NCBI GenBank assembly: GCA_030066015.1 | Contig: JASJCL010000027.1 | Span: 1 to 60,738, forward strand | Direction of reading: 5' to 3' | DNA: 60,738 nt | Source of the DNA: Desulfosarcinaceae bacterium | GTDB taxonomy: Bacteria > Desulfobacterota > Desulfobacteria > Desulfobacterales > Desulfosarcinaceae | Shown here: one piece after another, positions 5,049 to 24,298 of the stretch | Numbering within the stretch: the first letter of the stretch is position 1 | Layout of the letters: the number at the start of each line of letters is the position of its first letter | The notes under the pieces: generated by a model | Databases searched by the model: none | Told to the model about the DNA's origin: nothing | The model's input: the letters and a program-made list of their open reading frames with translations, nothing else | Position numbers and translations under genes: made by a program

Positions 5049-5855
5049 TCCTGCGCCGCCGCCCCGCCCGAGACCGTATCGATGCGGCCACCATCGCCTC
5101 GAGTGCCCCCACAGGATTGGGCCGGCGCCTGTGCGATACCGGCCTCGGCCAAAGTTCGCCGAATGGTGGTCATTTTTTTTGGCTTTTGGTCGGGCAAGGT
5201 CTGAAAGGACAGCCCCGCATCCCGCTTTTCCTGGGCCACTGTCGGCAGCATGGTGCTGCCAATGGGGGCATTGAGCGCTGCCGGGATCTTCACCTTTGGG
5301 GTTACCATCTTTCCGAAAAAAACCACCGATGGATTTCATCCGATTGGTTTTTTTTCATTGGCTTTACTACCATCATGCACCCGTTCATTCGAGCGTCATC
5401 GATCCTAGCTATCTCATTTATAATATTTTTGTATCATATTTTTAGTTACATAAGAACGTATCTGGAAGGATTGCGGCAACCACCTTCTTCCCGCCAATGG
5501 ATGAAGTATTTTTTACCAATAATTCCACATGGGAGCCGCTGGGTTGGGCACGTCGGGTGGCAGAGCTAGAAGCGGTGGGCTGAACGGAATACGCGCATTA
5601 AAATACTCCAACCAATTGAAAAAAATTCGGTTATCGGTGAAGGTTATCCCACGACCGCTCTCGAAATTTCGGAGACACAGGAGAGCAGCGCAGCGGGTTG
5701 GCGTCCCGAGTGCACTGCAATCTGCGAGATAAGGTATTTTTTTTGACCAATTTTTTTAATCAACCCATTTTCAGCTTTAATGGATGTTTCAAGAGTGGTA
5801 TAGAAAAGAGCCTACCGCTGTGAACCTTTCAATCCTATGGGAACGGAGCTATGCC
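5049..5855. other. 807-base intergenic region between gntR1 and the first lut pair
   Basis: The first 280 bases are GC-rich, and an open frame on the minus strand there is not convincing. The stretch from about 5340 to 5790 is distinctly AT-rich with long T runs. A TTGACC at 5743-5748 could be a -35 element for the downstream pair, but the matching -10 (CATTTT) is poor. I see no terminator with a clear stem after gntR1 and no perfect FCD operator. Confidence 0.5.
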
Positions 5856-6482
5856 GTGAGCGACACGTCTTCGACCGCGTTATTCACCCACAAAGCAGAA
5901 CTGGTGTCCACCATCGTCCACCCGGCCAAGCGCCTCGATGACGCGCTGGCCTACGCGCTGAGCGCCTGCGTCGAAAAGGAGGCGTGCCCAATGCTGATCT
6001 CCGGCTGTGAGGCGGAATTGTCTCCACCGGCCGAAGCGCTTTGCGAGACCAAGCGCGGCAAGATCATCGCCGCCCCGGATCTCGATGCCACCCTCCGCGA
6101 GGGGTTCGCCGAGCAGTGCGACCAGGCGGGGATCCGCCTGATTCATGAAGGCCTCAGGGACCACCTGGGCGGTATCGACATCGGCATCACATGGGCCAAC
6201 TGGGGCATTGCCGAGACCGGTACCCTGGTTATCGATTCGACCCGTGAGGAGATCCGTCTGGCCTCCATGATCAGCGAAATTCATGTGGTCCTCCTACCTG
6301 TGGACCGCATTGTGGGTGGAGCGGACGAGATCGCCGATGCGCTCGAGACCGCCATGCGGGATCCTTACAACTACACCGCCTTCATCACCGGGGCCAGCCG
6401 AACCGCTGACATTGAACGGGTGCTGGCCCTGGGTGTTCACGGACCACTGGAACTACACGTGCTGCTGCTGGGAGATGATTGA
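5856..6482 (+). CDS. lutC: Lactate utilisation protein C (LutC/LldG, LUD domain), copy 1
   Basis: A 208-residue LUD-domain protein, the small subunit of the LutABC-type L-lactate dehydrogenase complex. The family signature is visible as WGIAETGTLVI near residue 117 and as GVHGPLELHVLLL at the C-terminus. I chose a GTG start at 5856 because GGAG lies seven bases upstream; an upstream in-frame ATG at 5784 adds 24 residues unlike the family. The stop codon overlaps the next ATG (TGATG), so the gene is translationally coupled to the LutB-LutA fusion. The second LutC in this window, at 21450, is divergent in sequence and is not a recent duplicate. Confidence 0.88.
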   Translation: MSDTSSTALFTHKAELVSTIVHPAKRLDDALAYALSACVEKEACPMLISGCEAELSPPAEALCETKRGKIIAAPDLDATLREGFAEQCDQAGIRLIHEGLRDHLGGIDIGITWANWGIAETGTLVIDSTREEIRLASMISEIHVVLLPVDRIVGGADEIADALETAMRDPYNYTAFITGASRTADIERVLALGVHGPLELHVLLLGDD

Positions 6483-8632
6483 TGCAGAGATCGACGACAT
6501 TAAAAGGGTATCGGAAAGATGTAGGCGTCGCGCTGAAGAATGAATTCCTGCGCAAAGCGATGGACAACTTCGCCGTGGCCTACCGTGCGTCGCGCGAGAA
6601 CGCATTTCGGGAATTGGACAGTGAGCGCCTGATTCAGGATGTGGCCGAACTGAAGGACCGCGGCATCGATCAAATGGAGGCCCTTCTCGATCAATTCATC
6701 GCCGTGGCAACGTCCAAGGGGGTTCACGTTCACCTGGCCAAGGATTCCCAGCAGGCCAATGAAATCATCGCCACGATCGCCGCCGAGAGCGGCGCCAAAC
6801 GGGTGATCAAGTCCAAATCGATGACGGCCGAAGAGACCCTCCTCAACCCGTATCTGGAGATCAAGGGGCTGGATGTGACCGAGACCGACCTAGGTGAGTG
6901 GATCATCCAGTTGCGCGGCGAGGGCCCATCCCACATGGTGATGCCGGCCATTCATCTCTCCCGCTACCAGGTGGCCGACCTGTTCACTGACGTCACCGGC
7001 GCCCAGCAGAGCAACGATATCGAGAAGCTGGTCAAAGTGGCGCGGCGAGAGCTGCGTCAGAAGTTCGTGGATGCTGACGTGGGCATCAGCGGCGCCAACT
7101 TCGCCATCGCCGAAACCGGCACCATCGGATTGACCACCAACGAGGGCAATGCACGCCTGGTGACCACCCTGCCCAAGACCCACATCGCCCTCATCGGTCT
7201 CGAAAAACTGGTGCCGACCATTCGGGAGGCGTTGGCCATCAACCGCGTCCTGCCCCGCAACGCCACCGGCCAGGCGATCACCTCCTACGTCACCTGGATC
7301 ACCGGACCGGCCCCCTGGGGCGGCGAAGCGGACGGCCGCAAGGCACTTCACATCGTCTTCCTGGACAACGGCCGCCGGGCCTTGGCCAAGGATCGCGATT
7401 TTTCCCAGGTATTGCGCTGCGTGCGCTGCGGCGCCTGTGCCAATGTCTGCCCCATCTATCGCATGATCGGCGGACACCAGTACGGTCACATCTACATCGG
7501 GGCCATCGGCCTGATCTTGACCTACTTCTTCCACGGCCGTGCAAAAGCCCGCAACCTGGTCCAGAACTGCATCAATTGCGGCGCCTGCAAGGCGGTCTGC
7601 GCTGCCGGCATCGATCTGCCCAGTCTCATCAAAGCGGTGCATGAAAAGATCCTCGGCGAGGAGGGTCATCCCCTCACCAACACCCTGCTCAATCGCGTTC
7701 TGCGCAGCCGCAAGCTGTTTCACGGCTTGCTGCGCTCCACCCAGCTCACCCAGCGCCCAGTCACCACCAGCGATGGCTATCTGCGCCACCTGCCCATGAT
7801 CTTCGCCAAGGAGCACCGCTTTCGCGCCCTGCCCTCCATCGCGGAGAAGCCGTTCCGGGACCGCTGGGCGACCATTGCCCCCTCGGTGGCGAAACCCCGC
7901 TTCAAGGTCGCCCTCTTCTCGGGATGCGTCCAGGATTTCGTCTATCCGGAGCATCTCGAAGCCGCCACACGGGTGATGGCCGAAGAGGGCGTGGCCTTAG
8001 CGTTTCCCATGGATCAGTCCTGCTGCGGACTTCCGGTACAAATGATGGGCGAGTCCAAGGCGGCCCGCGATGTGGCGATTCAGAACGTGCTCGCCATGGC
8101 GGCGGAGCGCTACGACTACATCGTCACCCTCTGCGCCTCCTGTGCCTCCCACTTGAAGAAGGGCTACCCGAAACTCCTCGCCGACCACCCTAGCCTTGCG
8201 GACAAGGCGGAGCGCTTCGCTGACAAAGTACTGCCATTTAGCAGTTTCATGGTGGACGTGTTGGCGCTGAGCAGCGCGAACTACACCGGCGACGGCGAGG
8301 CGGTCACCTACCACGCCCCCTGTCACCTCTGCCGTGGACTGGGGATTCGTGAAGCACCCAGAGCCCTCATCGACCTCTCCGGGCATCGCTATGCGCCCGC
8401 CTCCGAGGAGGAGACCTGCTGTGGTTTTGGCGGCACCTACTCCAGCAAGTTTCCCCGCATCTCGGCCGAGATACTGGAAACCAAGCTCAAGGATTTCCAG
8501 GCCACCGGCGCCGAGCGGCTGGTCACCGAATGCCCAGGCTGTCTCATGCAGTTGCGCGGCGGGATCAAGCAGCGGGGCATCGAGATGGAGGTGTTGCACA
8601 TGGCCGAGCTGCTGGAGCGGCGCCGGAAATAG
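6482..8632 (+). CDS. LutB-LutA fusion: iron-sulfur L-lactate dehydrogenase subunit
   Basis: A 716-residue protein that joins LutB and LutA, normally two polypeptides. The order is a LUD domain at about 65-300 (FAIAETGTIGL), a bis-[4Fe-4S] ferredoxin segment (CVRCGACANVCP near 315, CINCGACKAVC near 363), and two CCG domains. The CCG domains show SCCGLPV, the PCH of YHAPCHLCRG, and CCGFGGTYSSKF. With LutC it should oxidise L-lactate to pyruvate in the cytoplasm and pass electrons on through its clusters. ATG 6482 has GGGAG seven bases upstream; a TTG three bases earlier is less likely. From general knowledge, comparable fused proteins occur in organic-acid oxidation clusters of Desulfovibrio. 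The gene ends this two-gene operon. Confidence 0.9.
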   Translation: MQRSTTLKGYRKDVGVALKNEFLRKAMDNFAVAYRASRENAFRELDSERLIQDVAELKDRGIDQMEALLDQFIAVATSKGVHVHLAKDSQQANEIIATIAAESGAKRVIKSKSMTAEETLLNPYLEIKGLDVTETDLGEWIIQLRGEGPSHMVMPAIHLSRYQVADLFTDVTGAQQSNDIEKLVKVARRELRQKFVDADVGISGANFAIAETGTIGLTTNEGNARLVTTLPKTHIALIGLEKLVPTIREALAINRVLPRNATGQAITSYVTWITGPAPWGGEADGRKALHIVFLDNGRRALAKDRDFSQVLRCVRCGACANVCPIYRMIGGHQYGHIYIGAIGLILTYFFHGRAKARNLVQNCINCGACKAVCAAGIDLPSLIKAVHEKILGEEGHPLTNTLLNRVLRSRKLFHGLLRSTQLTQRPVTTSDGYLRHLPMIFAKEHRFRALPSIAEKPFRDRWATIAPSVAKPRFKVALFSGCVQDFVYPEHLEAATRVMAEEGVALAFPMDQSCCGLPVQMMGESKAARDVAIQNVLAMAAERYDYIVTLCASCASHLKKGYPKLLADHPSLADKAERFADKVLPFSSFMVDVLALSSANYTGDGEAVTYHAPCHLCRGLGIREAPRALIDLSGHRYAPASEEETCCGFGGTYSSKFPRISAEILETKLKDFQATGAERLVTECPGCLMQLRGGIKQRGIEMEVLHMAELLERRRK

Positions 8633-13229: not shown

Positions 13230-13976
13230 ATGATCCTCACGAGAGCGAGCGACAGATCCAAACCCATCTCCCTTGACCCGATCAAACCCCGTCGCGTCTC
13301 CGATCAAGTCTTCGAACAATTGCGTGAGCACATCGCCCGCGGTCGCATCAAACCCGGTGAGCGCCTCATGCCCGAGCGGGAATTGGCCGCTTCCATGCGG
13401 GTCAGCCGCACGACGGTACGCGAGGCGCTTAATAAAATGGTGGTCATGGGCATTCTCGAGCAAAAACAGGGCCAGGGCACCTTTGTGCGCACCCTCGATC
13501 AAACGGCACCCGATAGCTTCACGGGGATATTGGGGTCCGAGGAGGCCACCCTCATCGATCTTCTCGATGTGCGTCTGGGCTTGGAGTGCAACGCCGCCCG
13601 CTTTGCCGCCCTGAGGGCCACCACGGTCGATCTCCATATCCTCGAACGTCATCTGGAGGAAATGGCCACCGCCATCAACACCGACAGTAACGGCGCGGAT
13701 GCGGACGTTGCCTTCCACATGGCCATCGCGGAAGCCTCCCACAACCCCCTTCAGGTTCATCTCATGCGGCAATTCTACGATTTCATGTCACTGGGGATTG
13801 AACGAAATCGCTCCCTCTTTTACGAGGGTGGCGACCGTATCGGTACCGTCCAGCATCAGCATGAGCGGATGGTGGCCGGCATCCGGCAGCGCGATCCCGA
13901 AGCGGCCGTGAAAGCGGTTCAAGCGCATATCGACAATATCCGTGAACGGCTGGAGGCAGCGGCAGCGGCGGAGTGA
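13230..13976 (+). CDS. GntR family (FadR/FCD subfamily) transcriptional regulator 2
   Basis: 248 residues. The winged helix-turn-helix spans about 18-85 (VSDQVFEQLREHIARGRIKP, then RVSRTTVREALNKM). An FCD domain follows with the metal-site residues in DVAFHMAIAEAS, QHQHERM and AHIDNI. The DNA-reading helix is closest to that of regulator 3 (DVSRTSVRDAINKL), so both probably recognise the same TGGTNNNACCA sites near dctP and lutA. It converges on the CoA-transferase gene. The start at 13230 has no strong ribosome site; residues before ISLDPIKPRRVSDQV may be excess. The effector is probably a carboxylate of the lactate pathway (inference). Confidence 0.92.
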   Translation: MILTRASDRSKPISLDPIKPRRVSDQVFEQLREHIARGRIKPGERLMPERELAASMRVSRTTVREALNKMVVMGILEQKQGQGTFVRTLDQTAPDSFTGILGSEEATLIDLLDVRLGLECNAARFAALRATTVDLHILERHLEEMATAINTDSNGADADVAFHMAIAEASHNPLQVHLMRQFYDFMSLGIERNRSLFYEGGDRIGTVQHQHERMVAGIRQRDPEAAVKAVQAHIDNIRERLEAAAAAE

Positions 13977-14025: not shown

Positions 14026-15915
14026 TCAGAGGTTGCCGTTTTCGGCCAAATGTTCAAACTTGCAGCTCAAGGCCAAGGACTCGCCATCGAAGCTGGTCTT
14101 GACCTTGTAGGGCAGGGTCTTGAACAGGCCGATCATCGCCTTGTTCTGGGGAGACGTGTAGGCCACCAGCCCGGAGATGCCATTCTCCCGCGCCGACTCG
14201 GCCAGCTTGCGCAGGAAGACTCTGCCCAACCCCTTGCCCTGGAAATCCTTGCTCACGGAGAAGGCCACCTCGGCCATATTGCTGTCGAAAAGCAGAAGAT
14301 ACTCTCCGACCGCCACGACCCGCCCAAAGCCAGCCTCTCCGATGACGCCCACCAGGGTCATGTCTTTGATGTAGTCGATCTGGGACTTCACCTCGATGTC
14401 CGAATGTCCGAAGCTGCTCTTCTCGTGAAAGAAGCGTGAGAAGATATCCTTTTTGTCGAGGGAGTAATAGTGCTCTTGGATGCGGCGTTCATCTACCGGC
14501 TTGGCCGGACGGATGATGAGGGATTCGCCGTCGATGAGAATGGTCTCCTCCAACTTGACGGGATAGACGGCCCGGCGGGCCTCACCGAGACTGCGATTGG
14601 CGCCGATCAGGCCGGCGTCCTTGGCCGCTTCGAATAGGCCGTCGCGCGCATCCGGATGGGCGATGCTGATCATGGCCATGGCCCGCTCCTGCAAACTCTT
14701 TCCAAACAGGTTCACGACGCCATACTCGGTGGCCACATACTGGACGTCGCCACGGGGGACCACCACCGATTGGTCTTGCATCATGGGAACGATGTTGCTG
14801 CTGGAACCGTCCGCACTCATTGCAGGCAGCATGAGGATGCTTTTCCCCCCCGGCGAGCGTTTGGCGCCGCGGACGAAGTCGGAGATGCCGCTGACACCGG
14901 CGAAGAAGGTCGATGCCACCGCTTCGGCGGCCACCTGGCCGGTAAGATCCACCGCCTTGGCCACGTTCATGGAGACCATGCGGTTGTGGCGGGCGATGAT
15001 GAAGGGATCGTTGACGTAGTCGCTGGGGTGGAAGTCGACGCCCGGATTGTCGTGCAGAAACTCGTAGAGATTGCGCGAGCCGACGGCGGCCGAGGCCACC
15101 AGCTTGCCGTCGTTAAAGCCCTTGCGGCGATTGGTGATGACCCCAACGGCATAGAGATGCATGATATCGTCGGTCAGATACTGGCTGTGAAACCCCAGGT
15201 CGTTCTTCTGGGAGAGGGCCTGAACGGTGGCCTGGGAGGCGGCGTCCAACCCCACCTGCAAGGTGGAGCCGTCCTCGATGAGGCGGGCGATGTGGTTGCC
15301 AATGTGGGTGGCCACCTCCGAGGGCTCGGGGGGGGAGGTCACGAGGAGATCTTCCTCCTGCTCGACGATAACGTCGACGCTGTTCACATGAATGAAGCTC
15401 TGGCCCATGATGCGTGGCATGCGCGGATTGACCTGGGCGATCACCAGGCGCGCGGCCTGGGCCGCCGCCATGGTGACGTCCACCGAGACGCTCATGCTCA
15501 TCCAGCCGAAATCGTCGGGAGGCGACACCTGGATAAGGGCCACATCGATGGGCAGTTTCTTGCTCTTGAAGAGGCTCGGCACTTCGCTCATGTTCATCGG
15601 CGTGATGAAGCGTTTGTACTTCTGAAAGGCGGGCGAACCGGTGGCACCGAGGTAGATCTGACGAATATTGAGGCTGAGGTCCTGGGTCTTGTCGGCGATG
15701 TCGCTCAGAGGGGTGATTTCGGAACTCATCATCCGCACGATCTCCAGCCCCGTGAACAGGTTGGTGCGCGCCGAGAGGGTTTTGACGAGGTGCTGGGGCT
15801 GTCCGCAGGCGGATCCGATGAAGACGCGTTGGCCCGACTTGATGAAGCGGATCGCCTCATCAGGGGCGCAGCGTTTTTCGATATAGTTGTCGGCCCAGTA
15901 TAGTGACTCGCCCAT
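14026..15915 (-). CDS. Acetyl-CoA hydrolase/CoA-transferase fused to a GNAT acetyltransferase domain
   Basis: 629 residues. About residues 10-455 form an acetyl-CoA hydrolase/4-hydroxybutyrate CoA-transferase-type enzyme (FIGSACGQPQHLVKTLSAR, then VATEYGVVNLFGKSLQERA near 395), which moves CoA between acetate and another acyl group. About residues 465-615 are a GNAT domain with the acetyl-CoA loop QGKGLG. The start at 15915 has AGGAGG five bases upstream. A terminator and a separate promoter lie before it, so it can be expressed apart from the synthetase gene upstream. From general knowledge this fusion exists in other anaerobic bacteria, but the target of the GNAT part is unknown. It could acetylate a protein or serve as an acetyl-CoA sensor. 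Confidence 0.9.
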   Translation of the reverse strand: MGESLYWADNYIEKRCAPDEAIRFIKSGQRVFIGSACGQPQHLVKTLSARTNLFTGLEIVRMMSSEITPLSDIADKTQDLSLNIRQIYLGATGSPAFQKYKRFITPMNMSEVPSLFKSKKLPIDVALIQVSPPDDFGWMSMSVSVDVTMAAAQAARLVIAQVNPRMPRIMGQSFIHVNSVDVIVEQEEDLLVTSPPEPSEVATHIGNHIARLIEDGSTLQVGLDAASQATVQALSQKNDLGFHSQYLTDDIMHLYAVGVITNRRKGFNDGKLVASAAVGSRNLYEFLHDNPGVDFHPSDYVNDPFIIARHNRMVSMNVAKAVDLTGQVAAEAVASTFFAGVSGISDFVRGAKRSPGGKSILMLPAMSADGSSSNIVPMMQDQSVVVPRGDVQYVATEYGVVNLFGKSLQERAMAMISIAHPDARDGLFEAAKDAGLIGANRSLGEARRAVYPVKLEETILIDGESLIIRPAKPVDERRIQEHYYSLDKKDIFSRFFHEKSSFGHSDIEVKSQIDYIKDMTLVGVIGEAGFGRVVAVGEYLLLFDSNMAEVAFSVSKDFQGKGLGRVFLRKLAESARENGISGLVAYTSPQNKAMIGLFKTLPYKVKTSFDGESLALSCKFEHLAENGNL

Positions 15916-16092: not shown

Positions 16093-18249
16093 CTAATCGC
16101 CCGCCGGCGCTTCCAGCAGGAAGCGGACGTCGGCCACAGTGGCCCCCTCCCCCTTGGCATGCACCAGAAGCGGATTGATGTCCAACTCCTTGATCTCGGG
16201 ATGGTCGCGCACCAGGTCGCTGAGGCAGACCAGGAGCTTTTCCAGAGCGGCAGTGTCGGCCTTGGGCATGCCGCGGAAGCCGTTGAGCAGGGCGTGACCT
16301 TTGATGCCGCGCACCATGAAGCGCGCATCCTCGCGCAGCAGCGGCGCCAAGCGGAAGGCCACGTCCTTGAACACCTCTACGAAGACACCGCCCGAGCCAA
16401 ACATCAGCAGGGGGCCATAGACGGGGTAGCGCATCATGCCGAAGATCACCTCCTGTCCCTTGGGGGCCATCTTTTGGACGAGCACGCCGGTGATTTCGGC
16501 CGCGGAATCGTAGGCCTTGGCATTGGAGAGAATCTCGTCGAAGGCCGCCGCCACCGCCGTCCGGTCCGCCATGCCGACCTTGACCCCGCCGGCGTCCGAT
16601 TTATGGATGATCTGCGGCGAGACGATCTTCAATACCACCGGATACCCCATCGTCTCGGCCGCCTGAATCGCTTCGTCAGCACTGGTGGCCAACTCGGTGG
16701 GCAGGGTCGTGAAGCCATAGGCCCGGAGGATGGCGAGGCCTTCCAGTTCGCCCAGATAGAACTTGCCCGCTTTGACACTCGCCTGGATCACTGCGGCCGC
16801 GGCGGCCTTGTCGTGCTGCGTGCGATACGGCGCCAGATCCTGACGATTGAGCCATTTGGAGTAGCGATAGACCGCACCGAAGGCCTTGGCGGCGTTCTCG
16901 GGGAAGCGGTAGACCGGAACGCCGTTCTCCTGGAGATATTTGACACCGGCGGAGACATCGATGATCCCCATGAAGCAGCACAAAATCGGTTTGTGAGAGC
17001 GGCGGGCAATGCGGACGATGGCCTCGGCCGTGCCCATGGCGTTGGTCATCGATTGCGGCGTGAGAATCACCATGGCCCCGTCCACCCCCTCGTCTTTGAT
17101 GACGGCGGCCAAGGCGTTCTCGTAGCGATCGTGGGCCGCATCACCGATAACGTCCACCGGATTGTTGACATTGGCGGTGGCCGGCAGGTGGCTGGTCAGC
17201 GCCTCGATGGTGTCCTCATGGAATTTGGCCAATTCGAGACCGGAAGAGACGGTCATATCGGTGGCCACGATACCGGGTCCGCCGGCGTTGGTGACGATGG
17301 CCACCCGGTTGCCCTGGGGCACCTTGCGGCGCAGTTTGCCGAGCGCGTTTTCGTTCTTGTAGGCGAAGGCGATGCCAAAATCGAAGAGTTCATCGATGCT
17401 GTCCACCCGAATGATGCCCGACTGGGCGAAGATGGCATCGTACACCGCTTCCGAGCCGGCCAGCGAACCGGTGTGGGAGGCCGCCGCGGCAGCGCCGGCG
17501 CTGGTACGGCCCGACTTGATGGCCAGAACCGGTGTGGGCCGATCGCCGCCGGTGATCTCCTTGAGGGCGGCCACGAACTCCGGACCGCGCTGGAGTTCCT
17601 CCACATACATCATGATCACCTCGGTGTCCGGATCCCCGTGGAGGTAGCGCAGCAGATCCAACTCGTCCACGTCGGCCTTGTTGCCGATGGAGATGAACTT
17701 GGAGAAACCGAACTCCTTGTCCGTGGCGAAGTCCAGCACGGCGGTGCAGAGAGCGCCACTCTGGGAGATAAAGGAGATGTTACCGGGCTTGGGCATGCGG
17801 CGCGAGAAGCTGGCGTTGAGGGCGACGTCTGGCAGGGGATTGATCACACCCAGACAGTTGGGGCCCACCAGGCGCACGCCCGCTTTGCGGCACATGGCAA
17901 CGATCTCGTTCTCGATGGCGAGACCTTCGCCGCCCACCTCCTTAAACCCAGCGGAGACGATGACCAGGCCGCGCACCCCCTTTTCGATGGCACTGGCCAC
18001 GGCGGCCTTGGCCAAATGGGGTGGCAGAATGATCATGGCCAGATCGATCTCGTCGGGAATCTCGGTGACACTTGGGTAGGCGCGTACACCGGCAACGGCC
18101 TTGGCCTTGGGATTGACCGGGTATAGGGTTCCGGTAAAGCCACCCCTGAGGATGTTTACGAAGATATCGTGGCCCACCTTACCGGTGGTGGTGGAGGCAC
18201 CCACCACTGCGACGGCCGTTGGTGAAAAAATAGCGTCCAAGTCTTTCAT
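16093..18249 (-). CDS. Acetate-CoA ligase (ADP-forming), alpha-beta fusion
   Basis: 718 residues. It converts acetyl-CoA, ADP and phosphate to acetate, CoA and ATP, or runs in reverse. The order is a CoA-binding Rossmann domain (about 8-135, AVAVVGASTTTGKVGHDI), succinyl-CoA-ligase-like domains with the phospho-histidine in ASHTGSLAG near 258, and a C-terminal ATP-grasp domain (about 490-715, GYPVVLKIVSPQIIHKSD). It provides substrate-level ATP from lactate oxidation. No phosphotransacetylase or acetate kinase gene is present in this window. AAGGA lies nine bases before ATG 18249. It follows glcF by 395 bases, so co-transcription with the lut genes is possible but not certain. Confidence 0.93.
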   Translation of the reverse strand: MKDLDAIFSPTAVAVVGASTTTGKVGHDIFVNILRGGFTGTLYPVNPKAKAVAGVRAYPSVTEIPDEIDLAMIILPPHLAKAAVASAIEKGVRGLVIVSAGFKEVGGEGLAIENEIVAMCRKAGVRLVGPNCLGVINPLPDVALNASFSRRMPKPGNISFISQSGALCTAVLDFATDKEFGFSKFISIGNKADVDELDLLRYLHGDPDTEVIMMYVEELQRGPEFVAALKEITGGDRPTPVLAIKSGRTSAGAAAAASHTGSLAGSEAVYDAIFAQSGIIRVDSIDELFDFGIAFAYKNENALGKLRRKVPQGNRVAIVTNAGGPGIVATDMTVSSGLELAKFHEDTIEALTSHLPATANVNNPVDVIGDAAHDRYENALAAVIKDEGVDGAMVILTPQSMTNAMGTAEAIVRIARRSHKPILCCFMGIIDVSAGVKYLQENGVPVYRFPENAAKAFGAVYRYSKWLNRQDLAPYRTQHDKAAAAAVIQASVKAGKFYLGELEGLAILRAYGFTTLPTELATSADEAIQAAETMGYPVVLKIVSPQIIHKSDAGGVKVGMADRTAVAAAFDEILSNAKAYDSAAEITGVLVQKMAPKGQEVIFGMMRYPVYGPLLMFGSGGVFVEVFKDVAFRLAPLLREDARFMVRGIKGHALLNGFRGMPKADTAALEKLLVCLSDLVRDHPEIKELDINPLLVHAKGEGATVADVRFLLEAPAGD

Positions 18250-18644: not shown

Positions 18645-19934
18645 TCACGCGTCCAATGCTGCTGCATAGAGTTCCACCGGATGCCGTACCTTGATCTGTG
18701 CCGCGGCCTGGGAGAGCATGTCTGAGACCTGAAGCATGCAGGCGGGGCACCCCGTGGCCAGTACCTCAGCACCGCTGGCCTGAATCTGAGCCGCTTTTAG
18801 CTGACCGATATCTCTGGAGATATCATAGTACTGCAGATTAAAACTGCCCCCCATGCCGCAACACACGTCGGGCTGGGCCATCTCCTTTAGGGTGCAACCC
18901 GGGGTGGCCGCGATCACCGCCCGCGGTTCCGAGAAAACGTGGAGGCCTTTTTTCAGATGGCAGGGATCGTGGTAGGTCACCGTACACCCGCCTGCAGCGC
19001 TGTTCGAAAGGGGCTTTAGAGAGGCCTCCTGGATCAGGAACTGGTTGATGTCCATAGTGCGGCGGGCCAGACGGGCTGCCGTGTCCCGATGACGCTCGTC
19101 GGCCATCTGCGGCCAGACCTCGTGGAGGGTGCTCGTGCAGGTAGCACAGGCGGTGACCAGATAGTCGAACTCCCCGCTGGTATACAGCTTGAGGTTATGG
19201 GCTTGCAGCTTCCGGAAGGTGGCCAGATCGCCGCTGGCCAGAGCCGGTATTCCGCAGCAGGCCTGGTTTTCCGGCAGAAAAAGCCCCACCTCGAGGTGAT
19301 CCAAGATCTTCAGCGTGCTGTCAGCGATGTTGGGGAAAATTTTGTCGATGAGGCAGCCGGTGAAGAGCGCCACCTTAAGCCCCGAGGTGCCTGCCGGACG
19401 GTCGATGGCGGCCGCCTGCCGGTGAAAGGGCACCGGGGCAAGGGTTTTAAAATGGCGGTCCTGGACCAGCGGTGACATCACCCGCGCGCATGAGGTTCCG
19501 ATGATCTCATTGGCCGAGCGGGTAAAGAGGTGCTGGAATTTTGCCCCCCACGCAGTGAGATGATCGAACAGCCGCGGGTTGGCCAACATGCCCCTCAGAA
19601 TCAGCCGTTTGGCCGGCGGCAATCCCATGAAACCGCTCAGAATCGCGCGGGCCTTGAGAAAGATCTCTTGAACACTCACCCCGGAGGGGCAGTTGGCCGC
19701 ACAGGATCCGCACAACAGGCATTTGTTGAGTTGGCGATGGACCCCTTCAGGGTCATCGAAGATGTGCTCCATCAGTCCGCTGAGGAGTGCCAACTTACCG
19801 CGGGTGACATCGGCTTCACGGCCGGTCTGATCGAACACCGGGCAGACCGACTGGCACATACCACATTTCATGCAAACAACGAGCTGATCTTCCAATTCCC
19901 GCATCAGACGGGCGAGCGTCTCCATGGAGGCCAT
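18645..19934 (-). CDS. glcF: GlcF-type iron-sulfur subunit of D-lactate/glycolate dehydrogenase
   Basis: 429 residues. Two [4Fe-4S] motifs near the N-terminus (CMKCGMCQSVCP about 20, CLLCGSCAANCP about 70) are followed by two CCG domains (ACCGIPALASG, YHDPCHLKKGLH, CCGMGGSFNLQ). It accepts electrons from the FAD subunit encoded by the preceding gene. The start at 19934 (MASMETLARLM) gives a family-like N-terminus four bases after the glcD stop; a longer in-frame extension would overlap glcD by 78 residues. Glycolate-type systems also need GlcE, which is absent here, so a D-lactate dehydrogenase role fits better. Confidence 0.9.
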   Translation of the reverse strand: MASMETLARLMRELEDQLVVCMKCGMCQSVCPVFDQTGREADVTRGKLALLSGLMEHIFDDPEGVHRQLNKCLLCGSCAANCPSGVSVQEIFLKARAILSGFMGLPPAKRLILRGMLANPRLFDHLTAWGAKFQHLFTRSANEIIGTSCARVMSPLVQDRHFKTLAPVPFHRQAAAIDRPAGTSGLKVALFTGCLIDKIFPNIADSTLKILDHLEVGLFLPENQACCGIPALASGDLATFRKLQAHNLKLYTSGEFDYLVTACATCTSTLHEVWPQMADERHRDTAARLARRTMDINQFLIQEASLKPLSNSAAGGCTVTYHDPCHLKKGLHVFSEPRAVIAATPGCTLKEMAQPDVCCGMGGSFNLQYYDISRDIGQLKAAQIQASGAEVLATGCPACMLQVSDMLSQAAAQIKVRHPVELYAAALDA

Positions 19935-19938
19935 TACA

Positions 19939-21336
19939 TTATGCTTTCGCAGCGATGATTTTACCGGGGTTGAGGATATTGTTGGGATCCATAGCGCGCT
20001 TGATGCGCCTCGAGAATAGAATGGTGCCGGCGCTGGTCTCTTTTTCCAGATAGCGGCATTTGGCCAGTCCGGTGCCGTGCTCGCCGCTAAGGGTGCCCCC
20101 CATTTCCAGCGCCGCGTCGAAAATGGCGTCGATGGTGTGCTCCACCCGCTGCCACTCTTCGGGGTCACGCTTGTCCGTTAGGATGGTGGGATGTAGGTTA
20201 CCGTCCCCGGCATGACCGAAGGTGCCGATGGTGACGTCGTAGCGCGCGGCGATCCGACCGATGGCGGCCACCATGTCCGGTATGCGGCTGCGAGGCACCG
20301 TGGCATCCTCCAAAACAAGCGTGGGTTTCAATTGTGCCAGGGCCGATAGGGCGGCGCGTCGCGCAGCCCACACGCGGTCCCGCTCGGCGGCATCCTGGGC
20401 CACGCGGATCGATGCCGCGCCCATGGAGCGGCAGAGCTTCTCGACCCGCTCGGCGTCCTCCTCCACCTGGGCCGGGTGACCGTCAAGTTCCACCAAGAGC
20501 ATGGCCGCTGCATCTGTGGGCATGCCGGCCTTGCTGAAATCCTCCACCGCCCGGATCGTAAAGTTGTCGAGGAACTCCAGGGTGGCCGGTACGATTCGGT
20601 TCGCGATGATGGCGGCCACCGTTTCCGAGGCTTTTTCCAGCGAATCGAAAACGGCCATCATAGCCTTGTTGTGCACTGGCAAGGGAATCAATTTAAGAAT
20701 GATCTCGTTGAACACGCCCAGGGTGCCCTCCGACCCCACCATCAGCCCGGTCAGGTTGTATCCTGTGGCGCACTTGACCGTCTTGGAGCCACTCTTTACC
20801 AGGTTGCCCTCCACATCAAAAAAACTCAGGCCCATCACATAATCCCGCGTCACCCCGTACTTCAGGCCGCGCAGGCCGCCGGCATTCTCCGCCACATTGC
20901 CGCCGATGGTGGAGACCGCCTGGCTGCCGGGATCGGGCGGATAGAACAGGCCCTTTGCCTCCACAGCGGCGGCCAGCTTGGCGGTCACCACGCCGGGCTG
21001 GACCACAGCGTACATGTCCGCTTCGTTGATTTCGACAATGGACTTCATCCCGTTGGTGACAATGACCACCCCATCGGGCAGCGGCACGGTGCCGCCGCTG
21101 AGATTGGTCCCTGCGCCGCGAACGGTCAGCGGCAGGCCGTTTTCGTTGCACAGGCGAACGGCCTGGCCCAACGCTTCGGTGCTTGTCGGGCGAACGATGA
21201 GACCGGGCTTGACCGGATCCACGACAGCGGCGTCATATGCGTAGGTGTGCAGATCTACGGCATCCGACCAGGCGTTTTCGTCGCCGACGAGGGTTTTGAA
21301 TTGGCCGACAAGGGCATTGGATATCATGGCAGGCAT
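19939..21336 (-). CDS. glcD: FAD-linked D-lactate dehydrogenase (GlcD type)
   Basis: 465 residues. The N-terminal PCMH-type FAD domain spans about 35-215 (VRGAGTNLSGGTVPLPDGVV, PPDPGSQAVSTIGGNVAENA). The C-terminal FAD-oxidase domain carries GHAGDGNLHPTI and SGEHGTGLAK. It oxidises D-lactate (or glycolate) to the 2-oxoacid and hands electrons to the GlcF-like partner just downstream. ATG 21336 follows AAAAGGG with almost no spacer; the in-frame ATG at 21327 has better spacing and may be the true start. It lies between lutC and glcF in the same direction, so one transcript can provide enzymes for both lactate isomers. Confidence 0.92.
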   Translation of the reverse strand: MPAMISNALVGQFKTLVGDENAWSDAVDLHTYAYDAAVVDPVKPGLIVRPTSTEALGQAVRLCNENGLPLTVRGAGTNLSGGTVPLPDGVVIVTNGMKSIVEINEADMYAVVQPGVVTAKLAAAVEAKGLFYPPDPGSQAVSTIGGNVAENAGGLRGLKYGVTRDYVMGLSFFDVEGNLVKSGSKTVKCATGYNLTGLMVGSEGTLGVFNEIILKLIPLPVHNKAMMAVFDSLEKASETVAAIIANRIVPATLEFLDNFTIRAVEDFSKAGMPTDAAAMLLVELDGHPAQVEEDAERVEKLCRSMGAASIRVAQDAAERDRVWAARRAALSALAQLKPTLVLEDATVPRSRIPDMVAAIGRIAARYDVTIGTFGHAGDGNLHPTILTDKRDPEEWQRVEHTIDAIFDAALEMGGTLSGEHGTGLAKCRYLEKETSAGTILFSRRIKRAMDPNNILNPGKIIAAKA

Positions 21337-21382
21337 CCCTTTTGAGTAGGCATGGAAATGAAATATTAAGTCCTGGACTTCG

Positions 21383-21410
21383 GGCGCATTTCACTGTGGT
21401 GAAACGCGCC
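21383..21410 (-). terminator. Intercistronic hairpin between lutC and glcD
   Basis: A 12-pair stem (one G-U) closes a four-base loop: GGCGCGTTTCAC with GTGAAATGCGCC on the minus strand. No T-tract follows, so it probably tunes or protects the mRNA rather than ending it. Confidence 0.6.
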
Positions 21411-21449
21411 AGAGGTATGGCGGATGAGATGCGCTGTTTTTGACCGGCA

Positions 21450-22127
21450 CTAGTTGCGGATCAATACGATCAACTCCTTGGGCCCATGAACGCCGAACAC
21501 CAGGGTGAACTCGATGTCGGCCGTCTTGGATGGTCCAGAGATGAAAAGGGCGTTGGTGGGCATGCCGTCGGTCCACCTCTCGGCCGCCATCATTTCGGTC
21601 ATCGAATTGTAGATCGTGTCGGCATCCAGCACCGCCACGTGCACTGGCGGCACTAGGGAGAGGAGTCGCGGTTCGGCCGGCGTGGGCCAAAGCGCAATCG
21701 CACCGGTCTCGGCCACGCCGCCACGGGTGCTGGTGATCCCCACATCGATGTTCTGAAAAAGCTCGCTCTTGAAAGATTCTACCGGTTGCGTATAGGCCAC
21801 CAGCTTCGGCAGGTCATCAGCGTCGGCGGGCCAGGCGGATTCTATTTCAGGCCCGATGGGGCCTTGGGGGCCATACAAAACCCGCTTCCAGCCCCTCTTC
21901 CGGGCCAATTGTTTGAGTTTGTCCTGCCATGAATCGCTTTCCACGATGTAAACCTCAGCGCGGATGGCGCTCATCAATGCAGCCAGGCGCTCAATCTTCG
22001 CATCGCCTGCCAGGGATATCTCCGACGGCAGTGGTGCGTCTGGCACATCGGTCTGCTCTGTACCGGAGGCGTGCAGGCGGGCCAATATGCGTTGCCGGGC
22101 GGTTTGGTTGCTGAGCTGGCTATTCAT
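21450..22127 (-). CDS. lutC: Lactate utilisation protein C (LutC, LUD domain), copy 2
   Basis: 225 residues with the LUD signature GVAETGAIALW near 142 and the C-terminal GVHGPKELIVLI. It overlaps the end of lutB by eight bases, a sign of translational coupling. It is the third gene of a conventional lutABC run and differs widely from copy 1 at 5856. With LutA and LutB it forms a cytoplasmic iron-sulfur L-lactate dehydrogenase. Confidence 0.92.
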   Translation of the reverse strand: MNSQLSNQTARQRILARLHASGTEQTDVPDAPLPSEISLAGDAKIERLAALMSAIRAEVYIVESDSWQDKLKQLARKRGWKRVLYGPQGPIGPEIESAWPADADDLPKLVAYTQPVESFKSELFQNIDVGITSTRGGVAETGAIALWPTPAEPRLLSLVPPVHVAVLDADTIYNSMTEMMAAERWTDGMPTNALFISGPSKTADIEFTLVFGVHGPKELIVLIRN

Positions 22128-23550
22128 GGTTTACCCCTTCATCCCGTAAGCGTTGGTGGAGGCTCTTGCGGGCGATCCGCGGCGCCGTTCGAACAGACGT
22201 CCACTGTTTCAGCGGCCCCACCTTGGGCAGGTGGTTTCCCATGGCACCCGCTACGCGGGTTCCCAGCTCGTTGAGCAGCGGCGAACGGTTGGCCAATTCC
22301 CAACCCTTCCAGACCATGGTTTCAGCGAAGTTCTTTTTGTATCCACCGCCATCGACGACGGCCGCCGCTTCTTGATCGTAGCTTTCGTAGCGCAAGCGAC
22401 GGATCAGGTCGGGGATGGGGATCTTCACCGGACAGACCTCGCCACAGGCCCCGCAGAGGCTGGAGGCTGTGGCCAGCACACCGGCCTTTTCAAGACCCTC
22501 CATCTGGGGGGTCAATATCTTACCGATGGGACCGGGATAGACATGACCGTAGGCATGGCCGCCGATACGCACGTATACTGGGCAGTGGTTCAGGCAGGTG
22601 CCGCAGCGGATGCAGAGCAAGGTCTGGCGCAGCTGGGGGTCGGCGAGGATGCTGGAACGGCCATTGTCCAATATGACCAGGTGCACCTCCTTGGGACCGT
22701 CCTTTTCATCCGCTTTGCGGGGGGAACTTATCATGTTGATGTAGGTAGTGATCAACTGGCCCGTGGCCGAGCCGGTCAACAGCCGCAACAAGGGCGGTAC
22801 GTCGGAGAGCTTTTCGACCACCTTCTCCAGGCCCATTACGGCCACGTGAACATCAGGGACGGTGGTGCACATCCGACCGTTGCCCTCGTTCTCCACCAGG
22901 AGCAGGGTACCGGTCTCGGCGATAGCGAAGTTCACGCCCGACAGCCCCACCTTGGCATCGGCGAAACGCTCCCGCAGCGTCCGTCGGGCAATGGCGGTCA
23001 GCTCTTCCACATCCTCGGTATAGGGGGTGCCGGTAAGCTTCTCATGAAAGATGGCGGCCACTTCGTCTTTGTTCTTGTGGATGGCCGGCACGATGATGTG
23101 GGAGGGTGTTTCGTGGTTGAGCTGGATAATAAACTCGCCCAGATCGGTCTCCACCCCCTCTAAGCCGTGCGCTTCCAAAAACCGGTTCAGATGCATCTCC
23201 TCGGAGACCATGGATTTCCCCTTGACCACCGCTGAGGCCTCATGACGGCGCATGATCTCCAAAATGATGTGGTTGGCCTGGGATGTATCCTCGGCCCAGT
23301 GGACGTGAATGCCGTTTGCCGTGCACTTCGCTTCGAGCTGTTCCAGCAGCTGGGGCAGCTTTTTCAGGGCTCGGCGCTTGATGGCATTGCCGGCGGCCCG
23401 CAGCTGTTGCAATTGGTCGCTGTCGGGAAAAATGGCGCGGCGCTTCTCGACCAGGATATCCATGGCATTGCGCAGATTCTTGCGCAACTGACCATCGTTG
23501 AGTGCGGTGTCGATGTTGCTATCGAAATCAAAGGAGGTCTTACTGCCCAT
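22120..23550 (-). CDS. lutB: Lactate utilisation iron-sulfur protein B (LutB)
   Basis: 476 residues. A LUD domain (about 65-300, FAIAETGTLLLVENEGNGR) precedes a bis-[4Fe-4S] segment (CIRCGTCLNHCP near 310 and LCGACGEVCPVKIPIPDL near 360) and a C-terminal DUF3390-like tail. I took the start at 23550 (MGSKTSFDFD) with GAGAGAA upstream. This overlaps the lutA stop by 11 bases, and an in-frame extension of 23 residues would overlap far more. It transfers electrons from L-lactate oxidation within the LutABC complex. Confidence 0.93.
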   Translation of the reverse strand: MGSKTSFDFDSNIDTALNDGQLRKNLRNAMDILVEKRRAIFPDSDQLQQLRAAGNAIKRRALKKLPQLLEQLEAKCTANGIHVHWAEDTSQANHIILEIMRRHEASAVVKGKSMVSEEMHLNRFLEAHGLEGVETDLGEFIIQLNHETPSHIIVPAIHKNKDEVAAIFHEKLTGTPYTEDVEELTAIARRTLRERFADAKVGLSGVNFAIAETGTLLLVENEGNGRMCTTVPDVHVAVMGLEKVVEKLSDVPPLLRLLTGSATGQLITTYINMISSPRKADEKDGPKEVHLVILDNGRSSILADPQLRQTLLCIRCGTCLNHCPVYVRIGGHAYGHVYPGPIGKILTPQMEGLEKAGVLATASSLCGACGEVCPVKIPIPDLIRRLRYESYDQEAAAVVDGGGYKKNFAETMVWKGWELANRSPLLNELGTRVAGAMGNHLPKVGPLKQWTSVRTAPRIARKSLHQRLRDEGVNHE

Positions 23551-24298
23551 TGGTTCTCTCCCAAAGGAATTCGGCCAGGTGCTTGCCGTCGATGGCCAGT
23601 TGGCCATGCGCCATGGCACCTGCGATATTCATCAGACAACCACAGTCACCGGCCAGAAGGGTCGAGGCGCCACTGCGGCGGATATCGTCGACTTTGTCCT
23701 TGACCATGGCCGCTGAAATCGCCGCCTGTTTTATGGCGAAGGTGCCACCGAACCCGCAGCATTCCGTCTCGCGCTCCAGTTCCACCAGAGTCACCTTGGA
23801 CAGCTGCCCGATCAAGGCTTTGGCATATTGGACGACGTTCATCTCACGCAGGGCGTGGCATGAGCTGTGCCAGGTAACCGTTGTCGGAGCGCCCCGATCA
23901 TCGAGCCGGACGTTCAGAACCGTGGCCAGGTATTCGAAGAGGTCGAATATACGACTGGCGAAATCGCGGGCGGCCGCTTCCTCTTTCGTACCAGCAAAGA
24001 GCTCGGGGTAGTGGTGCTTCATCATACCGGCACAGGATCCAGATGGCACCACGATGGGGTATGGCTTCGAAAATACATGGATCTGCTTGCGGGCCACAGT
24101 GCGGGCCTGTTGGATAAACCCAGAATTGAAGGCCGGCTGGCCGCAGCAAGACTGGTCTGGAGGGAAGAGAATCTCCACTCCTTGGGATCGAAGCAGGTTG
24201 ACGGCCGCCATCCCTGCGTCTGGATAGACAGCATCTATCAGGCAGGTGGCGAAAAAATAGACCTTGTTCGATGGGTCTGGAGACACCTTTCGTTGCAT
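23540..24298 (-). CDS. lutA: Lactate utilisation protein A (LutA), CCG-domain subunit
   Basis: 252 residues with two CCG (Cys-rich) domains: the first with YFFATCLIDAVYPDAG and SCCGQPAFNSG, the second with WHSSCHALREM and CCGFGGTFAIK. The CCG domains bind an Fe-S cofactor and are shared with GlcF and heterodisulfide reductase B. First gene of the lut-glc run. ATG 24298 has GGGGTG upstream. The predicted promoter is almost 400 bases away, so the transcript has a long leader. Confidence 0.93.
   Translation of the reverse strand: MQRKVSPDPSNKVYFFATCLIDAVYPDAGMAAVNLLRSQGVEILFPPDQSCCGQPAFNSGFIQQARTVARKQIHVFSKPYPIVVPSGSCAGMMKHHYPELFAGTKEEAAARDFASRIFDLFEYLATVLNVRLDDRGAPTTVTWHSSCHALREMNVVQYAKALIGQLSKVTLVELERETECCGFGGTFAIKQAAISAAMVKDKVDDIRRSGASTLLAGDCGCLMNIAGAMAHGQLAIDGKHLAEFLWERTNGQ

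Follow-up and report, generated by a model that had tools for sequence, protein, structure and literature searches.

The stretch of DNA considered here, called the window throughout, comprises 60,738 nucleotides of contig JASJCL010000027.1 from a Desulfosarcinaceae bacterium (assembly GCA_030066015.1), and its reverse strand carries a gene in which a domain related to coenzyme A (CoA) transferases is joined to an acetyltransferase domain of the GNAT type. The features of this fused gene are given below, with residue numbers counted from Met1 of the 629-residue product.

14026 to 15915, minus strand: fused gene for a putative pseudo-CoA-transferase domain and a Pat-type GNAT domain (629-residue open frame; Pfam; AGGAGG ending 5 nucleotides before the ATG).
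14605 to 15885, minus strand: AbfT-type (Family I) CoA-transferase-like domain, about residues 11 to 437 (PF02550/PF13336, phmmer and Foldseek).
15244 to 15246, minus strand: Asp224 where the GxG loop next to the active site has its second Gly, the loop reading GLD (alignment columns).
15181 to 15183, minus strand: Gln245 where CoA-transferases have their catalytic Glu (alignments and codon read; the column is that of Glu238 of 3gk7).
14884 to 14892, minus strand: S342-G343-I344 in place of the GGQ of the motif GGQxDFxxGA, which reads SGISDF, with Asp346 retained (alignment columns).
14077 to 14580, minus strand: Pat/PatZ-type GNAT domain, about residues 446 to 613 (best phmmer matches 9it0, 9isq, 4nxy and 4ava).
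14269 to 14271, minus strand: Glu549, aligned with the Glu of the Pat AE.A motif (alignments to Pat-type enzymes).
14224 to 14241, minus strand: QGKGLG loop for the acetyl-CoA pyrophosphate, residues 559 to 564 (sequence read).

The frame is single and unbroken, and Pfam recognises along its product PF02550 (E 1e-20) and PF13336 (E 6e-57), corresponding to AcetylCoA_hydro and its C-terminal domain, followed by PF00583 (GNAT; E 2e-9). The fusion described in the earlier note is thus confirmed, and so is the intact QGKGLG loop which that note had pointed out. Among solved structures, the best phmmer relatives of the first 430 residues are 4-hydroxybutyrate CoA-transferases (9vag at E 4e-106, then 3eh7, 3d3u, 2oas and 3gk7), while the top Foldseek matches are structures of AbfT and RipA with 33-37% identity in the alignments. 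Pfam, phmmer and Foldseek therefore agree on the Family I fold and domain composition of the N-terminal half, and the 50 Foldseek matches listed support the CoA-transferase fold alone. The closest named relatives of the protein lie in Desulfatitalea and other metagenome-assembled genomes of Desulfobacteraceae, with identity up to 73%. Full-length versions of the fusion were found repeatedly across many Desulfobacterota assemblies, and for this reason we do not consider it a product of chance; an artefact of annotation or assembly is likewise ruled out by the full-length homologues present in many separate assemblies. A scan for promoters and terminators around the gene gave nothing beyond shuffled controls.

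In Family I CoA-transferases, the catalytic Glu forms a glutamyl-CoA thioester and a Gly-Val-Gly loop lies beside the active site (PMC3180442), while GGQxDFxxGA constitutes a motif of the active centre (PMC8360832). The window protein departs from its relatives at each of these three sites. Where RipA has its catalytic Glu249 and AbfT its Glu238 there is Gln245, in a column that aligns with Glu242 of 3eh7 and Glu238 of 3gk7, the AbfT of C. aminobutyricum (numbers counted from the printed alignment lines); the GxG loop reads GLD and the GGQ motif reads SGI, with Asp346 still present. These replacements are fixed in clade A1, the clade of the window protein, which encompasses 32 rows of our alignment (30 fused in the available frame and 2 ended by contig ends): none of the 32 rows deviates from Asp224, Gln245 or SGI. 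The second Gly of the GxG loop, always Asp in A1, is Gly in all 29 Glu-bearing unfused rows. Because the catalytic Glu, the GxG loop and GGQ are all substituted, the protein does not qualify as an active CoA-transferase by the features tested, and its N-terminal half looks dead. A working CoA-transferase with a GNAT domain added to it, as initially proposed, is consequently not what these sites indicate; the loss of the catalytic Glu had escaped the earlier note.

This evidence needs to be viewed across the whole family. The census of residues at the catalytic position started from 220 distinct CoA-transferase domains, from which 5 short ones were dropped before trees and counts (two pieces of L252, L005, L212 and L247, where L212 and L247 are unfused with Glu) and to which 8 plasmid homologues and 3 segments from the PDB were added, giving 226 rows. 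The fused proteins came from the top of hit lists, hence not at random, but they were not chosen by their residue at the Glu position; their sampling covers Desulfobacterota, plus plasmids and one contig scan by exact short peptides that reaches close relatives only. The plasmid controls derive from 216 plasmid records that match the CoA-transferase half, none of which spans 80% of the fusion and eight of which were taken as unfused. Glu is absent in 149 of the 182 distinct GNAT-fused relatives, which have Gln in 114 cases, Glu in 33, Pro in 22, Asp in 7, Leu in 3, and Met, Arg and Gly in one each. Among the 33 proteins seen in frame as single domains, 29 have Glu and 4 have Gln (31 Glu and 5 Gln for the unfused domains of the 220-domain alignment before dropping). 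Two of these Gln rows, L031 and L249, lie at contig ends, L251 has a GNAT remnant of 35 residues downstream, and L248 has an in-frame stop, with no GNAT in the 555 bases examined downstream of it. Glu is present in 8 of 8 plasmid homologues and in the 3 PDB structures of the census alignment, as well as in 2oas and 3gk7, and hence in all 5 solved structures aligned.

The history of this loss is less clear than its extent. A FastTree phylogeny with midpoint rooting places Glu at the root and has 4 changes between Glu and other residues, while a quick tree of 100 rows has 6. Both would suggest several independent losses of Glu, a scenario that other trees do not require. Three Glu-bearing members of the mostly-Gln clade A (L021, L024 and L102) were left out, together with the motif columns, from a quick tree of 97 rows, which then had a single change, and from a careful tree, which had 3 and with which a single loss is not rejected (p-AU, from the approximately unbiased test, 0.418). 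All trees beyond FastTree comprise 100 or 97 of the 226 rows, partly picked at random.

Could the fused protein still be a bifunctional enzyme, its CoA-transferase/acetyl-CoA hydrolase half working with Gln245, or once this is converted to Glu, while its GNAT half acts as a modifier within one and the same pathway? The 33 fused relatives with Glu and the three Glu-bearing members within clade A argue in this direction, as does the retention of Asp346 and of the TEYG motif. Moreover, another Family I enzyme regains some activity after its Glu has been changed to Gln. Against these points stands the fixation of Gln in 32 of 32 A1 rows together with the change of Gly to Asp in the GxG loop and of GGQ to SGI, while Pro in group C and Leu, Met, Arg or Gly elsewhere cannot form the glutamyl-CoA thioester described in PMC3180442. 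With the catalytic Glu and two motifs gone, we have set this explanation aside as the principal one and regard it as rather unlikely.

Two sets of fused proteins deserve mention in this regard. Seven of them (L165, L168, L169, L170, L172, L181 and L183) have Asp at the catalytic position. Another Family I CoA-transferase becomes an acyl-CoA hydrolase when its Glu is replaced by Asp, and by analogy these seven may be hydrolases. Group C (L075-L094) is formed by 20 fused proteins with Pro at that position, 18 of which also have Asn for the Arg of the FxRGA stretch; both halves look altered in this group, given that the GNAT Glu is Asp in 14 of the 20.

The loss of catalytic residues does not imply that the domain is eroding. 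Stretches of the NPRMPR, VSPPD.G and TEYG kind remain conserved, and the mean identity of the CoA-transferase domain equals or exceeds that of the GNAT domain in every fused group (0.73 versus 0.71 in A1). A domain conserved as well as its GNAT partner would seem to be kept, which disfavours simple decay; plain decay is indeed unsupported by this comparison. Furthermore, the entry 4eub is titled as a crystal of AarC-E294A with CoA bound, Glu294 being presumably the catalytic residue of AarC, and thus the loss of catalysis need not mean the loss of binding. These findings bear also on a third possibility, namely that the CoA-transferase half is a ligand-free scaffold for structure or oligomerisation that has been retained by history. 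Its degraded active-site motifs would agree with such a role, and so would the multimeric nature of Family I CoA-transferases (PMC3180442). The conserved stretches, a rate of evolution no faster than that of the GNAT domain and the CoA held by the Glu294-less AarC mutant all speak against it, and we find it very unlikely.

The C-terminal half has kept the motifs of its type. For the last 180 residues, the solved relatives found by phmmer are acetyltransferases of the Pat type, including 9it0 and 9isq (protein acetyltransferase), 4nxy and 4ava. Of 10 matches among solved structures, 7 are labelled protein or lysine acetyltransferase or Pat, 2 are labelled 'Acyl-CoA synthetase' (4nxy and 4u5y, which we take to be the GNAT part of S. 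lividans PatA) and the weakest, 1y9k, is of another kind. The window protein has both the Glu of the AE.A motif and a loop that fits the Q/R-x-x-G-x-G/A motif of Pat-type GNAT domains (PMC8556138). All 30 fused rows of clade A1 have the Glu, and 29 of them have the loop; the corresponding values are 63 and 41 of 64 for A2 and 24 and 16 of 24 for group B, while in group C, where Asp often takes the place of Glu, the loop fits in 17 of the 20 proteins.

The fused gene stands within a lactate-oxidation cluster, the principal features of its surroundings being the following.

16093 to 18249, minus strand: ADP-forming acyl-CoA ligase, a candidate target, 177 bp upstream of the fused gene (Pfam and NCBIfam; SHTG motif present; adjacency in relatives).
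18645 to 24298, minus strand: lactate-oxidation cluster upstream of the fused gene, with GlpC/LdhH-like, GlcD-like, LutC-like, LutB and LutA-like genes (LutB/LldF model TIGR00273 over its cut-off).
13230 to 13976, plus strand: GntR/FCD regulator (LldR/PdhR-like), convergent with the fused gene (domain scans).

The earlier note placed an acetyl-CoA synthetase beside the fusion, and a synthetase does lie at 16093-18249; yet its domains (ATP-grasp_5, Succ_CoA_lig, CoA_binding and Ligase_CoA_2) are those of an ADP-forming enzyme. Its best NCBIfam models are 4-hydroxybutyrate--CoA ligase and acetate--CoA ligase alpha subunit, both below their cut-offs, and a motif check of its sequence found no PxxxxGK acetylation motif. 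On the other side of the fused gene are a TRAP transporter and a second lactate dehydrogenase pair, and the region is flanked by GntR/FCD regulators at 13230 and 25193. The window contains in this way two lactate-oxidation sets of differing type with the TRAP transporter between them: the set at 5784-8632 on the plus strand has a LUD protein and the quinone L-lactate dehydrogenase LdhH (NF045670 over its cut-off), while that at 18645-24298 on the minus strand is LutABC-like with GlcD- and GlpC-like partners.

The association with enzymes of acetyl-CoA metabolism extends to related loci. In clade A1, an ADP-forming ligase lies upstream on the same strand within 1.5 kb in 18 of 32 loci (17 under a stricter rule), and within 6 kb in one more. 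In A2, genes resembling RACo, CdhD or carbon monoxide dehydrogenase (CODH) are found within 6.5 kb in 20 of 66 loci, and each of these 20 has such a gene downstream on the same strand. AMP-forming AcsA, the classical target of Pat, is present in 8 of 66, in 7 of them downstream on the same strand. The queries for these neighbours were RACo/AcsV-like (under the AcsV cut-off), the CdhD-type delta subunit (over NF003377) and the catalytic subunit of anaerobic CO dehydrogenase (over TIGR01702). All six neighbouring AcsA proteins that were scanned pass the TIGR02188 cut-off, and PKTRSGK is present in 7 of 7 neighbouring AcsA frames, the seventh (L284) being 58% identical to the AcsA of L289. When only loci flanked by 4 kb or more on each side are considered, an acetyl-CoA enzyme (ADP-forming ligase, AMP-forming AcsA, or CODH/acetyl-CoA synthase, CODH/ACS) is present in 32 of 55 from clade A versus 3 of 62 from the other fused groups (0/14 in B, 0/15 in C, 0/5 in D, 0/5 for six other Gln rows, 0/1 in G and 3/22 for Glu-bearing proteins). 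The difference has a Fisher p of 1e-10, which is overstated, as the enzyme types were chosen after viewing clade A and the loci are related; the count is for this reason a description and not a clean test. As for individual cases, the paralogue L113 of the host (C20:10543-21023) and its relatives L104, L106 and L020 stand before RACo-, CdhD- and CODH-like genes on the same strand. Group B (L055-L074) often has an adjoining gene for a GidB-like rRNA methyltransferase (14/24), with no evident metabolic link.

These neighbourhoods help in weighing a further alternative: the GNAT domain might acetylate a small molecule, the N-terminus of a protein or its own protein, with the neighbourhood reflecting shared metabolism only. 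The substrate is not fixed by the GNAT sequence alone, metabolic neighbours could be co-regulated without any modification, and groups B, C and D lack the linkage with acetyl-CoA enzymes. On the other hand, most of the structural matches of the domain, 7 of 10 as given above, carry labels of protein or lysine acetyltransferases or Pat, and three distinct types of acetyl-CoA enzyme recur beside the fusion in one clade. We judge this alternative unlikely.

The rest of the genome, which is 96.6% complete, provides additional context. It encodes three fused proteins, all with Gln, and an unfused paralogue on contig C65 with Glu. The paralogue on contig C20 lies 264 bp upstream of a RACo/AcsV-like gene, followed by CdhD- and CODH-like genes. 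With the GNAT half as query, no protein beyond the three fused ones matched at E 0.001 or below; no classic PatZ was found, GNAT being absent from the stretches examined around nine matches to ADP-forming ligases. The fused proteins are the only Pat-type candidates found in this genome. Two SIR2 matches exceed their cut-off and one AcsA match, on contig C22, exceeds that of TIGR02188; the genome thus has, with the fused proteins, the pieces for reversible lysine acetylation. A partial CoA-transferase match at C23:187-651 (L005), near a contig end and with 28% identity, stops short of the Glu position, and GNAT was not seen in its available frame.

How can a domain that has lost its catalytic residues, and yet is as conserved as its partner, be accommodated in this picture? 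The architecture, the pattern of loss and conservation and the gene neighbourhood, all read from sequence, point to a Pat-type protein lysine acetyltransferase (KAT) under the control of a pseudo-CoA-transferase that acts as sensor. Pat/PatZ, in which the dead part is an acyl-CoA synthetase, would be its counterpart; we favour this explanation with moderate confidence. The fused protein would probably switch acetate metabolism in response to its sensor, instead of catalysing two metabolic reactions itself. It would work most likely as Pat/PatZ does, with a different dead enzyme as the sensor. We infer that the dead domain has retained the binding of a ligand, be it CoA, acetyl-CoA or another acyl-CoA or carboxylate, and that this ligand would determine how active the GNAT domain is or how it oligomerises. 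The GNAT domain would then acetylate lysines of acetyl-CoA enzymes, namely the adjoining ADP-forming ligase, the AMP-forming AcsA of the genome or CODH/ACS. Sirtuins would take the acetyl mark off and the supply of acetyl-CoA would thereby feed back on lactate and acetate metabolism. The original suggestion, in which the GNAT domain acetylates its neighbours and so adjusts acetyl-CoA flux, is compatible with the Pat-type domain, the acetyl-CoA enzymes recurring in the clade and the SIR2 genes of the host. The adjoining ligase of the window is ADP-forming, a type not presented as an acetylation target among the literature matches listed.

The fused protein may be compared with several known systems. 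The fused protein shares with Pat/PatZ (YfiQ) and the type II SlPatA the combination of a Pat-type GNAT with a large domain derived from an acyl-CoA enzyme and lacking the catalytic residue (PMC8556138, PMC6456759). It shares also a tie to acetyl-CoA synthetase, which in the fused family takes the form of AcsA adjacency in some relatives only. The differences are that its dead domain is a Family I CoA-transferase instead of an NDP-forming acyl-CoA synthetase, that it has about 630 residues versus 886 for the PatZ-like chain 9it0, and that several genomes have several fused paralogues. In type I KATs, acetyl-CoA is bound by a domain that is a dead acyl-CoA synthetase (PMC8556138), and the window protein is not one of them, since this defining domain is absent and PF02550/PF13336 occupy the N-terminus; CoA transferase is mentioned once in that paper, in connection with a variant of the tricarboxylic acid cycle. 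The type III KATs, regulated by cAMP, ACT or NADP, have a similar layout, with an N-terminal domain of a few hundred residues before a C-terminal Pat-type GNAT; here the putative regulatory domain is instead an enzyme fold, outside the three regulatory domains named in the part of PMC6456759 available. AbfT, RipA and butyryl-CoA:acetate CoA-transferase share the fold of the N-terminal half (with the identity to AbfT and RipA structures already given), unlike the fused protein in keeping the catalytic Glu and unaltered GxG and GGQ motifs and in having no added GNAT domain. AcuA of B. subtilis, to our knowledge, has no fused CoA-transferase-like domain. It is similar in being a GNAT KAT that controls an AMP-forming acetyl-CoA synthetase, AcsA (PMC11255334, PMC11910552, PMC8556138). 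Among the matches listed from the open-licence PMC literature, no fusion of CoA-transferase and GNAT is described as an acetyltransferase, even if such a description may exist, and the combination of Glu loss with an acetyl-CoA-enzyme neighbourhood does not appear in their titles or the starts of their abstracts. NCBI product names pair acetyl-CoA hydrolase/transferase with GNAT, and the fusion itself may therefore be known to annotators.

Several observations weigh against the sensor-governed KAT that we favour. Some of the 33 fused relatives with Glu are possibly still transferases, and the careful tree, with its 3 changes, leaves a single loss of Glu unrejected. The GNAT half is imperfectly conserved: 163 of the 182 fused proteins have the Glu, against 16 with Asp, 2 with Met and one with a gap, and the [QR]xxGx[GA] loop fits 136 only. 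The predicted structure of the window protein is middling (mean confidence, pLDDT, of 74; predicted template-modelling score, pTM, of 0.62; 26 sequences) and carries no information on how the domains dock. Of the 32 loci in clade A1 itself, 10 lack an ADP-forming ligase although their flanks are long enough, and the flanks of 3 more are short. The linkage is absent from all 34 well-flanked loci of groups B, C and D, and the significance of the contrast with clade A is inflated for the reasons given above. We know of no ADP-forming ligase established as a KAT target. Finally, the activity, ligand and substrate of the fused protein are predictions drawn from sequence comparisons.

A bolder extension of the sensor reading, possible but doubtful, is that Desulfobacterota have a KAT class of their own, in which a Glu-less CoA-transferase would serve as sensor of acyl-CoA or acetate and different paralogues would each attend to one acetyl-CoA node, switched by reversible lysine acetylation. 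The nodes would be ATP formation from lactate to acetate (ADP-forming ligase), acetate activation (AcsA) and the CODH/acetyl-CoA synthase pathway, while the members that keep Glu may sense via a glutamyl-CoA thioester. If the sensor reading is true, a dead acyl-CoA enzyme would have been recruited a second time as a Pat-type sensor, with a CoA-transferase instead of an acyl-CoA synthetase, which suggests that joining a broken enzyme to a GNAT domain is a general way of sensing acetyl-CoA status. In sulfate reducers, where the acetyl-CoA/acetate node sets energy yield and carbon fixation, the fused proteins would then be candidates for the post-translational control of ADP-forming ligase, AcsA and CODH/ACS. 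The annotation as CoA-transferase or hydrolase would then be misleading for most of the fused proteins sampled, namely the 149 without Glu. As a separate observation, a search with PF13336 in 58 genomes of the order, which enters no other count, gave a match in 55.

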